Shown here: in pieces, positions 8,353 to 63,110 of the stretch
Layout of the letters: the number at the start of each line of letters is the position of its first letter
Position numbering within the stretch: position 1 is the first letter of the stretch
Origin: an uncultured Flavobacteriales bacterium
Lineage (GTDB): Bacteria > Bacteroidota > Bacteroidia > CAIKAF01
NCBI GenBank assembly: GCA_903825395.1
Contig: CAIKAF010000019.1
Coordinates: 1 to 64,000 of the forward strand
DNA: 64,000 nucleotides
Direction of reading: 5' to 3'
The notes under the pieces: model-generated
The model's input: the letters and a program-made list of their open reading frames with translations, nothing else
Told to the model about the DNA's origin: nothing
The model's database searches: none
Translations under genes and position numbers: made by a program

Positions 8353-8389
8353 AAGGGTCCGGGCACTTCGGTGTTCGGACCCTTTTTTT
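8353..8389 (+). terminator. Rho-independent terminator of the giant cargo gene
   Basis: The outer stem AAGGGTCCG/CGGACCCTT (8353-8361 with 8376-8384) encloses a short inner stem on a UUCG tetraloop at 8367-8370, followed by a run of seven T. It lies 20 bases past the stop codon. Confidence 0.92.
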
Positions 8390-8390
8390 G

Positions 8391-8538
8391 TGGGCGGCAG
8401 CCGGGCTTTCACCGGTTGTCCGCGGTTGCCGGACGGGGCGGCAGCGGGCTGCGGTGGCTCCTAAAGTCGCCTCCTCGCCGCGCGCCGCCTGCCTCCGGCA
8501 CCCTTGCGGGCAACCGCGTTCAATCCCTGCCGCGGGCC
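8391..8538 (+). repeat. GC-rich structured interspersed repeat, copy A
   Basis: Starts with GGGCGG then CGGGCTTTCACCGG, has the core GGCTCCTAAAGTCGCCTCC at about 8455-8473, and ends CAATCCCTGCCGC. The arms CGCGGTTGCC (8421-8430) and GGCAACCGCG (8509-8518) are perfectly complementary, with an inner GCGGC/GCCGC pairing. It belongs to a six-copy family in this window. Confidence 0.8.
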
Positions 8539-8554
8539 CCAAACCCAAAACGCC

Positions 8555-31744: not shown

Positions 31745-33085
31745 ATGTCTATGCCCAATACCATCAAATTACATCAAGATTATCCCAGCATTGCAAATTC
31801 TCTTAGCCTTTATGAACGTGCCAAAGAAATAATGCCTCCAGTTACTCAAACCATGGCAAAAGGCCCGGGTCAGTATTCGCTTGGAGCAGCCCCAATTTAT
31901 TTGAAAAGAGGCAAGGGGGCTCGAGTTTGGGATGTGGACGGGAATGAGTATTTAGATTGGAATGCAGCTATTGGACCTCTGTCTTTAGGCTACGGATGGC
32001 CGTCAGTTGATAAAGCGATTTTAGATCAATTGGCAGATGGTATTACGTTTTCGCTAATGCATGAACTGGAGTATCTTGTGGCAGAACGTATCCATAAATT
32101 AATTCCAAATGCAGAATCTATAAGGATTAGTAAATCAGGGGCAGATGTATGCTCTGCTGCGGTCCGAATAGCAAGAGCACATACTGGACGAGAAAAAATT
32201 CTGTGCTGTGGATACCATGGATGGCATGATTGGTATATTTCCATTACTTCTAGAGCCAAGGGAATACCCAGTGCAATAGGCGAACTTACCAATACTTTTG
32301 ATTACAACAACATCGATTCCCTCAAGGAATCTCTAGATTCGTCTGTTGCCGCTGTCATCATGGAGCCTTTTGTATTTGACCGGCCAACTGAAGGGTATTT
32401 GCAGGAAGTGGCCCGTTTGTGCAAGGAAAATGGAACGCTACTTATATTCGATGAAATGTGGACGGGATTTAGGTTGGCCTTAGGAGGTGCTCAAGAATAT
32501 TTCGGAATTAAGCCTGATTTGGCTGTCTACAGTAAAGCTGTCGCAAACGGGATGCCCATTGCTTTTTTAACCGGCCGGAAAGATGTGATGGAGCACTTTA
32601 ATCACGATGTATTCTTCTTCACCACCTTTGGGGGAGAAGCATTGTCATTGGCCGCAACCTTGGCCACTTTAGATGAATTGCAAAGATTGGATGTGCCTGC
32701 CGATCTTGCTGCCAAGGGACAGATTTTAATGGACGGGTATAATGCGTTGGCAGAAGAACTAGGGATGCAGCACCTAACACGGTGTAAAGGGTATCCCTGC
32801 AGAACAACGGTGACTTTGGAAGCTGGTGTTGGTAATGCGTTGGAAGTAAAAGCCTATTTTCAGCAGGAAATGATTCGTAGGGGGGTTTTATGGCAGGGAA
32901 ATCACAACATGATGGCGGCCCATAGTATGGAAGACATCCAATACACGCTTAGTGCATATAGAGATGTGCTGCCTTTATTGAAAGATGCCATTGAAAAAGG
33001 AGATGTCGCTTCTAGGTTGCGCGGAAAGCCCCTGGAGGCGGTATTTAGAAAGGTAGATAATTTCAACATGAAACCAAAAGCATGA
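31745..33085 (+). CDS. Class III PLP-dependent aminotransferase (HemL-like)
   Basis: A 446-residue fold-type I enzyme similar to glutamate-1-semialdehyde aminomutase. Visible motifs are VWDVDGNEYLDWNAAIGPLSLGY, ISKSGADVCSAAVRIARAHTG, YHGWHDWY, IFDEMWTGFR (Asp that contacts the PLP ring nitrogen) and YSKAVANGMPIAFLTG, with the PLP lysine at K264. True HemL is usually more similar and keeps GGG at the PLP phosphate site; here it is KSGADVC. An aminotransferase acting on a surface-sugar or secondary-metabolite intermediate is possible. The stop overlaps the next start by 4 bases. Confidence 0.85.
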   Translation: MSMPNTIKLHQDYPSIANSLSLYERAKEIMPPVTQTMAKGPGQYSLGAAPIYLKRGKGARVWDVDGNEYLDWNAAIGPLSLGYGWPSVDKAILDQLADGITFSLMHELEYLVAERIHKLIPNAESIRISKSGADVCSAAVRIARAHTGREKILCCGYHGWHDWYISITSRAKGIPSAIGELTNTFDYNNIDSLKESLDSSVAAVIMEPFVFDRPTEGYLQEVARLCKENGTLLIFDEMWTGFRLALGGAQEYFGIKPDLAVYSKAVANGMPIAFLTGRKDVMEHFNHDVFFFTTFGGEALSLAATLATLDELQRLDVPADLAAKGQILMDGYNALAEELGMQHLTRCKGYPCRTTVTLEAGVGNALEVKAYFQQEMIRRGVLWQGNHNMMAAHSMEDIQYTLSAYRDVLPLLKDAIEKGDVASRLRGKPLEAVFRKVDNFNMKPKA

Positions 33086-33330
33086 GGTTTCAGGTAGTGG
33101 GTGGCCCAATGGCCAAACGCTGGATGATGTCCTCTGGCCTTTTTCTTGTACTCCTATCTCTATTTATCTTTGAGTTCCCTAGGTTTTTCTCCTATCTAAT
33201 TGCTGGGATAATCTTGATATTTGGAATCTTGATTTTTTTGGGAGGTCTAATGGCTCCTAGCCGTTCAAAATATGGAAATGAGGGGCCGGGAAATCAAACA
33301 GAAGACGGAACATGGGAAGACCTTTCTTAG
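33082..33330 (+). CDS. Small two-helix membrane protein
   Basis: An 82-residue protein with two hydrophobic helices (about residues 16-33 and 37-56) and a hydrophilic C-terminal tail. Its start overlaps the aminotransferase stop (ATGA), and it overlaps the next gene by 19 bases, so it appears translationally coupled to both. I do not recognise a family. Confidence 0.65.
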   Translation: MRFQVVGGPMAKRWMMSSGLFLVLLSLFIFEFPRFFSYLIAGIILIFGILIFLGGLMAPSRSKYGNEGPGNQTEDGTWEDLS

Positions 33331-34895
33331 TTGTTTCTTTTTATTGTCTTTTAGCTCTAAAGGCATGGATGCAACTCCCAACCCTGACTTGGGGGCAGGG
33401 CATTGGATTTTCAAGAAATGAAAGTTTACATAATTTATACTCGATTTCCAATGTAGAAGCTGGCTGGGTTCGATTGAAATTCCCGTCATTGGGTTACCAT
33501 AAGGCTATTGTTGATGTGTTCGATATCCCCTTTTTGAATTTGGATAGAAGCATTGAACTTCACCATGGGAAAATAGTGCAGGAAAAGTATCGGTTTTATC
33601 GTCCCAAATTCGCAGGGATGACCGTTCTTAAGAATCGTTTTTTGATTTTTCAAACCGGGTATGATCCAAATCGGAAACAAGCTTTAGCTTTAATTAATCC
33701 GGTTGATCTAAATGGACGGGAAGAGGGTAAACCTAGTCTTATTTTGGATGAACGCGTCGAATCTAAAATTAAAGCTCCCTCCGTGCGGTTTTTATCTGAA
33801 TCAAGTTCTGGGAAAATCGCATTGTTTACAACAAATTTTTCCGACCGGCAATTGGGCGTAGAACTGGAAATTAGTGTGTTAGATAGCACTATGAATTTAG
33901 ATTGGACCAATACGGTTATGTTGCCTTATCAACGAAATGAATTGGGGGCCGAAGAAATACGAATTGATGATAATGGAACGGTATGGGCTCTCCTGCAAAT
34001 CCGACCTAGGGAAATAGGAATTTTAGAAAATAGGGAGGATAAAAGTTTGTTACAACTCTTGGTTTTTTCCTCTACAGATAGTTTGGGTGAGTTTTTTAAT
34101 ATTCCATTGAAGTATGGAGTGCGTAAGATACAGAGCGCTTCGCTGGATACATTAAACGGCGAAATTTGGATTAGTATGAGCTATGAAATCCCCCAAAAAA
34201 GGGCAGCCTCAACCTTTGGAATTCTGCTTCAGCCAATACCAAAAAATCCAAAACTTTCGTGGCCGGAGCCCATCGACCTTGCCTTTGAACCTTCATTTCT
34301 CCCTGATTTTGAAACCGATGCCCTAATTCAAAGTAGAGCAGATCGAGAGGCAGCATATGTTGAGGTACTTAAGGTTTTTTCTTCTTCTTCTCAGCGTAGT
34401 AAATTTGTTCTTGCCGAACACCGCTTATTTACAGAGCATTGCTATACCGATTATCGAACGGCTCAACAATTTTGTACGTATACCTATTATCGGAACGACC
34501 TGTTTGTTTTTGCCTTAGATTCTATGAATCGAATGGCATGGAAAATGAAACTTCCAAAGCGGCAGGTCAGTCGAAATGATCAGGGCATGTTTCTGTCTGT
34601 TTTTCCTGCCATGTCGAACGACACCTTAAAATTAGCCTGGTTGGAACACCCTGAAAACAATGAACTTACTTCTGAAAAGGAACGGCGTTTTATGGATAAT
34701 CCACGAAAGGCACATTTGCTTGTATGGCATTTGCCGTTAACCGGAGTTCCTCATCGAGCACAAACCCCATTGCCTAGGACTGGTAAAAAAGTGATTGTAC
34801 CAATGCTGAATAAGGGACTACTTGTTCCTGGCGGTTCAGTTTTTTTCCCGGGTATCCTAGGCCGGAAAATGTTTCCTGGAATTTTAAATTGGTAA
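33312..34895 (+). CDS. Secreted or periplasmic protein of unknown function
   Basis: A 527-residue protein with a signal-like N-terminus (FLVVSFYCLLALKAW). The rest is beta-rich and carries repeated strand patterns (VFDIPFLNLDRSIELH, LIFQTGYDPNRKQALALINP, ISVLDSTMNLDW), compatible with a beta-propeller of 7 or 8 blades. A CYTDYRTAQQFCTYTYY segment has a cysteine pair that may form a disulfide. No sorting domain is visible. It is the last gene of an overlapping trio with the aminotransferase and the small membrane protein. Confidence 0.7.
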   Translation: MGRPFLVVSFYCLLALKAWMQLPTLTWGQGIGFSRNESLHNLYSISNVEAGWVRLKFPSLGYHKAIVDVFDIPFLNLDRSIELHHGKIVQEKYRFYRPKFAGMTVLKNRFLIFQTGYDPNRKQALALINPVDLNGREEGKPSLILDERVESKIKAPSVRFLSESSSGKIALFTTNFSDRQLGVELEISVLDSTMNLDWTNTVMLPYQRNELGAEEIRIDDNGTVWALLQIRPREIGILENREDKSLLQLLVFSSTDSLGEFFNIPLKYGVRKIQSASLDTLNGEIWISMSYEIPQKRAASTFGILLQPIPKNPKLSWPEPIDLAFEPSFLPDFETDALIQSRADREAAYVEVLKVFSSSSQRSKFVLAEHRLFTEHCYTDYRTAQQFCTYTYYRNDLFVFALDSMNRMAWKMKLPKRQVSRNDQGMFLSVFPAMSNDTLKLAWLEHPENNELTSEKERRFMDNPRKAHLLVWHLPLTGVPHRAQTPLPRTGKKVIVPMLNKGLLVPGGSVFFPGILGRKMFPGILNW

Positions 34896-35355
34896 TAGCC
34901 TGATCTACTCTGAAGCTGATGATTGTTCGAGATTCGAGCCCAATCCCTTAAAAGGTATTGTCAAGAATTGGCATATTCTCTCCAAATAGCGCCCCCCCAA
35001 AGCAATCGGTTCCTTTTTTAAAAGCTCAAATTTTTCGCAAAACTTAAAATGTTCTGCTTATGATGTTGATTTTATTCATTTGGTTTTCTCTCTGTTTTTA
35101 GCTGTTTAATGGTATGGGTGTAAAATTCAGTCCATATTTCCAGCGGACAAATCAACCATCAATGTCAAAAATTTATTGTCCAAAATAATTTAAGTTCAAT
35201 CCGTTGGTTCTTAATTAATGAATCACTCATGATTAACGATTGGTTTATCCAAAATCCTTACATATTAAAGGGTTGCATGCGTTCAGTCAGCTCTTTATCC
35301 AAAAAAATGGGATAAAAATGCGGTTTTACCTTGAAACTTTGAAAATACTCGCGTA
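34896..35355. other. AT-rich gene-free region
   Basis: I see no gene here. A short hairpin TTATCC/GGATAA occurs near 35294-35314, and the sequence TTTATCCAAAA occurs twice (about 35245 and 35293). A weak promoter-like TACCTTGA lies near 35327. The segment leads into the candidate structured RNA. Confidence 0.5.
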
Positions 35356-35690
35356 AATTCGTAGTTCATCGATGAGACGTTAAATAAAAACTTCGTCACG
35401 TATTGGGGTGGCGAAGATTAGTTAGGGAACTTTTTGGAGTGAACTACGGGAATTTGGGAAAGCTGGAAAGTGGAACCAAGTTCGCCTTGGGGAGTCTCAG
35501 AATAGCTTTCTGAACTGTGCAAGGGCAACCTTGCGAGAGCAGGAAGCGGGAGCATGGGAATGAGACAGGATGAACTGGCAAATTCATCCTTTTCAGGAGA
35601 GGAAGGGAGGAAGGAAAGGAAGTTAAAACGAATTTCAATAATCCTTTTAATGGTGGAAAAGTTCGGAGACCCGAAGGGCACGAGGCTTCC
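35356..35690 (+). ncRNA. Candidate structured RNA, family unknown
   Basis: At least seven helices occur within about 330 bases of gene-free sequence: CGTAGTTCA (35360-35368) with TGAACTACG (35440-35448); CTTCGTCAC (35391-35399) with GTGGCGAAG (35408-35416), which needs one G-U pair and so fits the plus strand only; CCAAG/CTTGG (35476-35490); AGT-TCAGAA/TTCTGA-ACT with one bulge (35493-35516); GCAAGG-GCAA-CCTTGC (35519-35534), a GNRA tetraloop on the plus strand; AGGATGAA/TTCATCCT (35567-35590); and TTCGG/CCGAA (35662-35675). A purine-rich stretch lies at about 35595-35625. Not recognised as RNase P RNA, tmRNA, SRP RNA or a riboswitch. The hairpin and GNRA pattern is loosely like the first domain of a group II intron, but no reverse transcriptase or domain V is visible. 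A decayed retroelement and a new RNA are both open. Confidence 0.45.
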
Positions 35691-35777
35691 TTTTTTGGGT
35701 AAGCCAAAGCGCAGCCTTCAGGAAATCGCTATTGGAATCATTCAAGCCCAAAGGGCGTCATAATTTTGAACCGCCCC

Positions 35778-36587
35778 TTAAATTTGCCCCCCTTCAACCC
35801 CCAGCCCAAAAAACGCATAATCAAGAAACGCCGGATCCTCCGGATATATATCAGCCGCTTTTTCAGTCAGCTCTTTGACCGAAAGCCAATCATTTTGCTT
35901 CCTGGTTAATATGCCCAGCTCTCTTGCCACATTCCCAGAATGAACATCTAAGGGTAGGTGTAACCGCCGCGACGGAATAGAGCCCCAAATCCCAAAATCT
36001 ACGCCTTCGTCCTTATTCCTTACCATCCAACGTAAAAACATGTTGATGCGCTTTGCCGCCGAGCCCTTGAGTGGGTCGGCCAGATGTTTCCCGCTGCGAC
36101 CAGGATGGTCGCCCCGCAAAAACGATGTTCTAAAACGATGGAGGCCTTGCCCAAAATCCTCCTCAGATCTAAGGGCATTTGAAAAGCAGGCTTCAAGTCC
36201 TTCTTGTTGATAAATTGACCGAAGTCGTAGAATCAACCACTTTGCATCTTGTCCATTGAATGTCCGATGAACAAAGCTGTCAAGGCAGTTTAAATCTTTT
36301 TCTGAGGCCTCCATGACAAATTCATAAGGACTGTCCCACATCAGGTTCATCCAGCGGCTACTTGATTGTAGAATGCTGCGCCGATTTCCCCAGCTGATTA
36401 GGGCCGTGCAAAATCCCGAAATTTCGATGTCTTCTTTTCTTGTATAGCGATAGGGAATAGAAATGGGGTCGGCAGAGATGAAATCCTGACCAGCATACCG
36501 ACGCGCAATTTCAACCAAATCAATCTGTTCAATAAATGGTTGAAGTGAAGGTTCGGAGGCGAGTTTGCCCATGTCAATTTTTTTCAA
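35778..36587 (-). CDS. DUF2400 / TIGR02757 family protein
   Basis: A 269-residue protein matching the TIGR02757 family common in Bacteroidota: DPISIPYRYTRKEDIEISGFCTALISWGNR, then a FNGQDAKWLILRLRSIYQQEG region, RINMFLRWMVRNKDEGVDFGIW and a C-terminal LPLDVHSGNVARELGILTRKQNDW. The repeated helices and the LDVH..N.AR.LG segment recall the helix-hairpin DNA glycosylase fold, so a DNA-repair role has been suggested, but the function is not established. It follows cmk by 44 bases on the same strand. Confidence 0.9.
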   Translation of the reverse strand: MKKIDMGKLASEPSLQPFIEQIDLVEIARRYAGQDFISADPISIPYRYTRKEDIEISGFCTALISWGNRRSILQSSSRWMNLMWDSPYEFVMEASEKDLNCLDSFVHRTFNGQDAKWLILRLRSIYQQEGLEACFSNALRSEEDFGQGLHRFRTSFLRGDHPGRSGKHLADPLKGSAAKRINMFLRWMVRNKDEGVDFGIWGSIPSRRLHLPLDVHSGNVARELGILTRKQNDWLSVKELTEKAADIYPEDPAFLDYAFFGLGVEGGQI

Positions 36588-38429: not shown

Positions 38430-38738
38430 TCTTGGCCTAAAGGTACAAGACTGCTGTAAATTTTTTACTTGGATTTTCATTCTTTTCCGAGCGAGGGGTT
38501 TGTAGTTCTAAAAAATGGGGATTGGATGTGAGCCGCTGCGCCCCCGATTGAACCGGCAGCCGGAGCCGGACAACCGGCAGTGCAACCTGGCTGAGGAGGC
38601 GACCTTGGGAGCCACCGCAAGCCAAGGTTGCACCCGGTTGTACAATCCGGCTACAGGTGAAAGCGGGAAATGGCGCCCAACTTAAATTCCCAACGACCTT
38701 GAAATTTCTTGCGTAACTTAGAGCAGAATTTCTGAGGA
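38430..38738. other. Divergent intergenic region, porQ and purB
   Basis: This 309-bp gap carries promoter sequence for two outward-facing genes and one GC-rich structured repeat in between. It is the only repeat copy that lies upstream of genes on both sides. The purB side has a possible TAACTTAG element near 38713. Confidence 0.5.
38531..38679 (-). repeat. GC-rich structured interspersed repeat, copy C
   Basis: On the minus strand: GGGCGCCATTTCCCGC, CTTTCACCTGTAG, arms, core GGCTCCCAAGGTCGCCTCC, second arm, then TTCAATCGGGGGCGC. The plus-strand arms at 38571-38592 and 38620-38640 pair over about 20 bp with two irregularities. Both ends are very close to copy D, but the arms are unrelated to it. 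Confidence 0.8.
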
Positions 38739-40097: not shown

Positions 40098-40113
40098 TTT
40101 TTTTTAGGTTTTT

Positions 40114-40255
40114 GGGGCGCCATTTCCCGCTTTCACCTGTAGTGTAGGCCCAGCCAAGCTGCAAACAGGGCCCTGCGGTGGCTCCCAAGGTCGCCTCCTC
40201 GGTTTCTGTTTGCCGGCTTGCCTGGGCCAACACTGCCGGCTCAATCGGGGGCGCG
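40114..40255 (+). repeat. GC-rich structured interspersed repeat, copy D
   Basis: GGGGCGCCATTTCCCGC, CTTTCACCTGTAG, arms at 40147-40168 and 40206-40228 that pair over about 22 bp, core GGCTCCCAAGGTCGCCTCC in the loop, then CTCAATCGGGGGCGC. It sits between the convergent purB and mdh genes. Confidence 0.82.
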
Positions 40256-62909: not shown

Positions 62910-62962
62910 GCGCGTTCAGATTTCCCTTCCAATTCAAAATTGCTTTTTGAATGATTTTTGGT

Positions 62963-63110
62963 TGGGCGGCCGCGGGCTTTCACCGATAGTCCGCAGCGGC
63001 AAGTGGCTGGGCCAGCGGGTTTGCGTGGGCTCCCAAGGTCGCCTCCGCACCGCGCGGCCCAGGCACTTGCCGCTTTGCGGGCTATTCGGTTCAATCCCTG
63101 CCGCAATGCC
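62963..63110 (+). repeat. GC-rich structured interspersed repeat, copy F
   Basis: TTGGGCGGCCGCGGGCTTTC, ACCGATAGTCCG, arms at 62995-63013 and 63056-63074 that pair at 18 of 19 positions, core GGCTCCCAAGGTCGCCTCC in the loop, then GGTTCAATCCCTGCCGC. Confidence 0.83.

Follow-up and report, generated by a model that had tools for sequence, protein, structure and literature searches.

The window, i.e., the whole stretch of 64,000 nucleotides analysed here (contig CAIKAF010000019.1), belongs to the genome of an uncultured Flavobacteriales bacterium (G000; 2.6 Mb, 33 contigs). Within the window, an open reading frame on the + strand (33312-34895) and a DUF2400 gene on the - strand (35778-36587) are separated by an intergenic gap of 883 bp, ranging from 34895 to 35778, in agreement with the gene-free gap of 880 bp described in an earlier note on this DNA. 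The open reading frame encodes 527 amino acids, has no Pfam match and is conserved in three further species of the genus (G001, G003 and G005). The earlier note had placed a structured RNA candidate at 35356-35690 of this gap. Its core indeed lies inside a repeated element, but this repeat really extends from ~35330 to ~35740, so that the 3′ end had been set ~50 bases short. The locus contains the following features.

35331-35361, + strand: promoter, with TTGAAA at 35331-35336, a 17-base spacer and TAAATTCG at 35354-35361, which fits the Bacteroidota-type -10 element TANNTTTG.
35362 to ~35735-35740, + strand: structured RNA of ~375-400 nt, delimited by alignments of copies.
35366-35376, + strand: near-palindrome TTCATCGATGA just after the start, from the alignments; other copies have TTCATCGATGAA, TTCACTAGTGAA or TTCACTGGTGAA.
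35391-35399 with 35408-35416, + strand: helix P2, paired in 97% of cells in 32 sequences, with the conserved loop GUAUU(U)GGG.
35420-35423 with 35442-35445, + strand: helix P3, one pair of which is C-G in 19/32 and G-C in 12/32 sequences.
35448-35486, + strand: P4, a GNRA-capped hairpin, loop GGAA at 35465-35468 in the window copy.
35494-35499 with 35561-35566, + strand: helix P5, which closes the central domain, paired in 97% of cells.
35505-35512 with 35540-35547, + strand: helix P6, within 35505-35547.
35519-35524 with 35529-35534, + strand: helix P6b, loop GCAA at 35525-35528.
35568-35574 with 35583-35589, + strand: helix P7, judged by eye, with a conserved GGCA in its loop and a short T run after it.
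35590-35625, + strand: fast-evolving purine-rich segment, 48% identical between orthologues in comparison to 89% in the core.
35626-35740, + strand: 3′ tail, homologous across subfamilies and less conserved, 72% identical between orthologues.
35670-35678, + strand: CCC-GAA-GGG hairpin within the 3′ tail of the RNA.

The RNA would start near 35362, as judged from the promoter, and its 3′ end probably lies where the conservation between copies stops (CTATTGG). The near-palindrome behind the start could form a hairpin, serve as an operator or provide a rival pairing for the conserved GUGAA of P3. The motif TTGA[AC]N-N16..18-TANNTTYG is present directly upstream in 59 of 62 distinct RNA copies, with a spacing of 17 in 58. 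Homology between copies begins a few to ~20 bases upstream of the -35 element, and beyond this point the flanks are unrelated. Each copy is a self-contained unit, consisting of a conserved promoter and ~400 bases that specify a branched fold. A convincing protein frame had been denied in the earlier note, and no reading frame is conserved among the copies, in which the longest stop-free stretches range from 31 to 122 aa on the + strand and from 46 to 126 aa on the - strand. Two - strand open reading frames of the window copy (35418-35681 and 35444-35707) were rejected as coding, since they have no Pfam match and the stop-free lengths vary widely among copies.

Folding of the + strand of 35356-35690 results in -115.2 kcal/mol (z -6.1), which is equalled by 0 of 100 shuffles; the - strand has a folding z of -4.3. 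To count covariation, 32 divergent copies from one genus were aligned by MAFFT without regard to structure, and the helices P2, P3, inner P4, P5, P6 and P6b (36 pairs) were covered. Here, standard pairs are present in 96.5% of the helix cells in comparison to 90.1 ± 0.5% in shuffles, double changes occur at 14 of the 36 pairs (6.4 ± 1.3 in shuffles), and the number of double-changed cells is 79, as opposed to 20.9 ± 5.6 in shuffles and 3-16 in slid controls. None of 500 shuffles attains any of these measures, and although related sequences can beat shuffles without any structure, the slid controls, which retain the relatedness, score far lower. This covariation over 32 copies is decisive evidence for a fold maintained by compensatory change. 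The earlier note had proposed a multi-helix fold and had named beforehand the loss of its helices in homologues as the observation that would speak against it; the helices are retained in the homologues.

On the level of single helices, the pair in the middle of P2 is U-G in 29/32 sequences and C-G in 3/32, thus the G-U pair that had been described as working on the plus strand only is kept. The shape of P4 is found in almost all copies despite differing sequences, and its innermost loop is GNRA in 39/47. P6 and P6b together contain 8 pairs with double changes, and P6b ends in a GNRA loop in 34 of the 35 copies where it is recognised. In addition to the GNRA-capped hairpin reported before (GCAA), the window copy has another one (GGAA in P4). 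P7, read by eye rather than by a formal count, appears as GGATGAA/TTCATCC, GGGTGA/TCACCC or GGGTTG/CAGCCC according to the subfamily. The long-range pairing UAGUUCA/UGAACUA that had been suggested holds for the subfamily of the window copy but is confined to it, whereas the local P3 is kept in all subfamilies. RNAalifold had proposed to pair columns 81-83 with 254-256, which was dropped in favour of P3, since the two cross and P3 has the better support.

A blastn search of the window's own genome (query 35300-35780) gives 36 matches of 69-100% identity and thereby reveals a multicopy dispersed family, a feature that was not visible to the earlier note. A covariance model built from 25 RNA copies detects 34 matches there, among them the window copy at 35362-35592 with 229.6 bits. 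Every match of this genome below 190 bits is located at a contig edge, which indicates copies split by the assembly and not decayed ones. The 34-36 matches include such split halves, and the genome contains about 30 RNA copies, a count that is limited by contig breaks at RNA copies, all sequences being MAG or draft data.

The model also detects copies in G001, G003 and G005, which together with the window's genome are the carriers, but not in G002 and G004 of the same genus (the non-carriers). Outside the genus, no copies are found in a sample of 119 genomes of relatives or in a class-wide sample of 395 genomes; in the latter, a match of 24.5 bits in G221 is a plain hairpin and was read as chance. 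The absence from G002, G004 and the other genera sampled means that the family is not essential to the lineage. When 84,980 species genomes were scanned with a pattern, matches occurred in three MAGs only, titled Bacteroidetes or Flavobacteriales, with sample names that suggest lakes or the Caspian as habitat. Phage records, plasmids and viral contigs have no match to the family, which argues against a spread by phages or plasmids. A tree of 50 RNA cores contains subfamilies common to several species as well as recent multiplication within one species.

Rfam 15 has no match in the window at the gathering threshold and no convincing match in 34800-36300 at E<=10. Furthermore, 20 loci with diverse RNA copies (E<=5) contain neither a match to the RNA nor an intron match; the single match above gathering is a neighbouring cobalamin riboswitch, which acts as positive control. 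This riboswitch adjoins one RNA copy (L010, 503-687 on the - strand, 107 bits). A tRNA/tmRNA search found none. The lack of fit to known RNAs, which the earlier note had claimed and for which it had suggested an Rfam scan, thereby extends from the window copy to the 20 loci. The earlier note had left the choice between a decayed retroelement and a new RNA, and had pointed out a loose likeness to group II introns. Hairpins with GNRA loops in repeated copies would indeed fit a group II intron or another retroelement that has decayed. Nevertheless, RVT_1 is absent from all four carrier genomes, while it is found in two non-carrier genus members and in controls, no intron model matches, and the copies are intact and have their own promoter. 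This makes a retroelement extremely improbable and also led to the rejection of a reverse transcriptase as mobiliser of the family, whereas covariation and promoter speak for the new RNA.

One RNA copy of the window's genome (G000:C24) has an orthologue in the distant species G005, flanked by the same genes. Between the two, the RNA core is 88.8% identical, the promoter 67.6%, the purine segment 47.8% and the tail 72.4%, in comparison to 61-63% for the surrounding intergenic DNA and 69-80% for the flanking coding sequences. As judged from these identities, the RNA core is under purifying selection. In closer orthologue pairs, the identity of the core is at most ~11 points above that of the flanks, or not above it. 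Since these pairs are too similar to be informative, the case for selection is carried mainly by the one distant pair together with the covariation, and gene conversion between RNA copies might give the same picture as purifying selection. No description of this RNA family came up in searches of the literature. Covariation, promoter, purifying selection on the orthologous copy and the lack of an Rfam match support that it is a new, previously undescribed structured RNA.

The nearest precedent is FopS from B. thetaiotaomicron, a paralogous sRNA family of 14 members with sigma-ABfr promoters, in which a short 5′ seed pairs with mRNA (PMC11697453). Both families consist of dispersed, multicopy paralogous noncoding genes in a Bacteroidota genome with sigma-ABfr-type promoters (here, 34-36 matches and 59/62 promoters). 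A base-pairing sRNA family of this kind, with a common core and a variable part, e.g., the purine segment, which pairs with mRNA starts, would explain the copies, the promoters and the variable purine-rich segment. In contrast to FopS, the RNA is ~400 nt long, has a covarying multi-helix core, is present in ~30 copies in one genus and has adjoining hairpin repeats. It gives no sign of a short seed: conservation resides in a large structured core instead of a short single-stranded seed, and between orthologues the purine segment is under the weakest constraint, unlike a selected seed. Such a base-pairing function is therefore quite improbable.

The RNA copies are dispersed over unrelated intergenic sites, and their upstream flanks differ. 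In the window's genome, convergent gene pairs surround 13/19 RNA copies in comparison to 7/97 background gene pairs, for which the genes were called with a simple ORF finder. Downstream of the RNA tail, many copies (L012 and L015 among them) carry the C-rich motif CCCAAAAAAGGGAATCCC..CCCCTTAAA. Read on the opposite strand, this motif resembles a terminator hairpin, as would be expected if it belonged to the convergent gene. The preference for convergent gene ends and this motif would fit to an element acting on the level of DNA or the 3′UTR, i.e., a terminator, an insulator or a REP-like repeat between convergent genes, with the RNA structure as a by-product. On the contrary, the exactly spaced conserved promoter inside the repeat, the strand-specific G-U pairs and the GNRA loops point to a + strand transcript, and we regard this explanation as very unlikely.

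A second repeat of ~160 bp is GC-rich and structured, has its own strong covariation and is present in ~97 copies in the window's genome. Four of its copies, two full and two partial, lie in the window.

8385-8542, - strand: full 160-bp repeat, ~50 bp past the stop of a gene and antisense to it.
62959-63107, - strand: full 160-bp repeat, likewise ~50 bp past the stop of a gene and antisense to it.
38589-38682, + strand: partial 160-bp repeat.
40108-40201, - strand: partial 160-bp repeat.

Loci holding this repeat have no convincing Rfam match, and the repeat is undescribed, like the RNA. Its 15-mer GCGGCAGGGATTGAA has 97 exact matches in G000, 57 in G001, 79 in G003 and 62 in G005 and never occurs in G002 or G004. 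This species distribution, which is shared with the RNA, may be plain phylogeny of four carriers versus two non-carriers. Around the RNA, all 32 repeats within 800 bp of a copy point away from it, counted over 71 distinct RNA copies, a number that includes orthologous copies, so that the independent events are fewer. Upstream repeats are present at 16 RNA copies, always in opposite orientation and in 15 cases at a distance of 71-208 bp; downstream repeats are present at 16 copies as well, always in the same orientation, 13 of them at 166-334 bp. The repeats flank the RNA mostly on one side only, many RNA copies have no adjoining repeat and most repeats no adjoining RNA. Furthermore, the repeat lies antisense at gene 3′ ends in 13/20 cases, and this preference accounts for part of the outward orientation between convergent genes. 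A unit that ranges from just 5′ of the -35 element to precisely the repeat end is common to three copies of one subfamily, which lie at unrelated sites in two species. The repeats of these three copies have 84-92% identity in comparison to a family mean of 66%. RNA and repeat have evidently moved together in this one subfamily.

Orthologous sites without the RNA are present as well, as expected of a mobile element. In G001, the two genes that flank the G000:C24 copy are ~50 bp apart without an RNA, and at the site of the window copy, both G001 and G005 lack the RNA and have ~60 bp between the flanking genes. The flanks of the window copy differ in their identity to G003, with 82% to G003:C138 (window 33000-34944) and 96% to G003:C24 (35794-37400), possibly due to a recombination breakpoint or a binning mix at the RNA repeat.

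The main rival explanation is a selfish mobile element that carries an RNA instead of a protein, with the RNA and the 160-bp repeats as working parts. Its mobilisation would depend either on a factor whose gene lies elsewhere or on the RNA itself, similar to a REPtron in which the RNA gene replaces the transposase gene. Presence and absence at orthologous sites, the unit shared by three unrelated sites, the outward repeats close to the RNA and the common species distribution with GCGGCAGGGATTGAA all fit to this. On the other hand, no mobiliser was found. In addition to the reverse transcriptase, Y1 transposases were rejected, as Y1_Tnp is absent from the carriers G001 and G005 and does not track the RNA family, and so was TnpB (PF07282), which is absent from all six genomes of the genus while 6 control genomes matched. 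IscB (RRXRR) likewise matched 0/6 genomes, but its control matched nowhere either, and no IscB-like nuclease frame lies beside the window copy. Moreover, no target-site duplication is established, hardly any decayed copies are present in the window's genome, many RNAs lack the repeat and most repeats the RNA, and the antisense location at gene ends explains part of the orientation. A selfish element is therefore possible, but on the doubtful side. The more specific idea of a protein-less mobile element, in which the structured product of an RNA gene with its own promoter, beside or between outward repeats, would recognise these repeats and direct or perform the mobilisation, appears unlikely.

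The explanation favoured here, with an about even chance of being correct, is that of multicopy structured RNA genes, whose product acts in trans and which also spread as a repeat. The housekeeping RNA polymerase would transcribe every copy, and the RNA would fold via P2-P7, with the GNRA loops and the invariant G-rich loops building a compact tertiary structure. The RNA may then act in trans, probably bound to protein, and the many gene copies would ensure a high RNA dosage. The gene would spread, sometimes together with the adjoining 160-bp repeat, into gene ends, since a strong promoter does little harm there.

REPtrons consist of a transposase gene between outward-pointing REPs of 20-40 bp, with solo repeats at gene ends. 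The RNA family resembles these REP-RAYT systems in a central gene with structured outward repeats (32/32) and in many solo repeats at gene ends. In contrast, the repeat is ~160 bp long, the centre is an RNA gene and not a Y1 transposase (RAYT), and no transposase tracks the family. HEARO and the OMEGA RNAs of IscB and TnpB are multicopy structured RNAs that are tied to a mobile element. The RNA described here differs from them, since it carries a promoter of its own and no recognisable variable guide, TnpB is absent from the genus and Rfam has no match. ROOL, GOLLD, OLE, 6S, tmRNA, SRP and RNase P are also large structured bacterial RNAs, to which Rfam gives no match here.

Only a small number of large bacterial RNAs have complex conserved folds, and several of these turned out to work as ribozymes, as guides or as scaffolds of RNPs. 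Here, ~30 intact copies of such an RNA, which is limited to one genus, are present in a 2.6-Mb genome, with a physical and phyletic tie to a second structured repeat. This raises the question whether a dispersed repeat can have a structured RNA as its functional core, with no protein linked to it, or whether the dosage of an RNP is behind the copies.

Within the genus, the state of the copies varies. In G001, the copies L144, L147, L150 and L192 have low scores of 26-101 bits and damaged helices, and the family seems to be decaying there, unlike in the window's genome. Two apparently orthologous copies, L049 from G001 and L087 from G005, lack P4, keep the other helices and are 94% identical in the core, and thus appear to represent a variant without P4 that is maintained across species.
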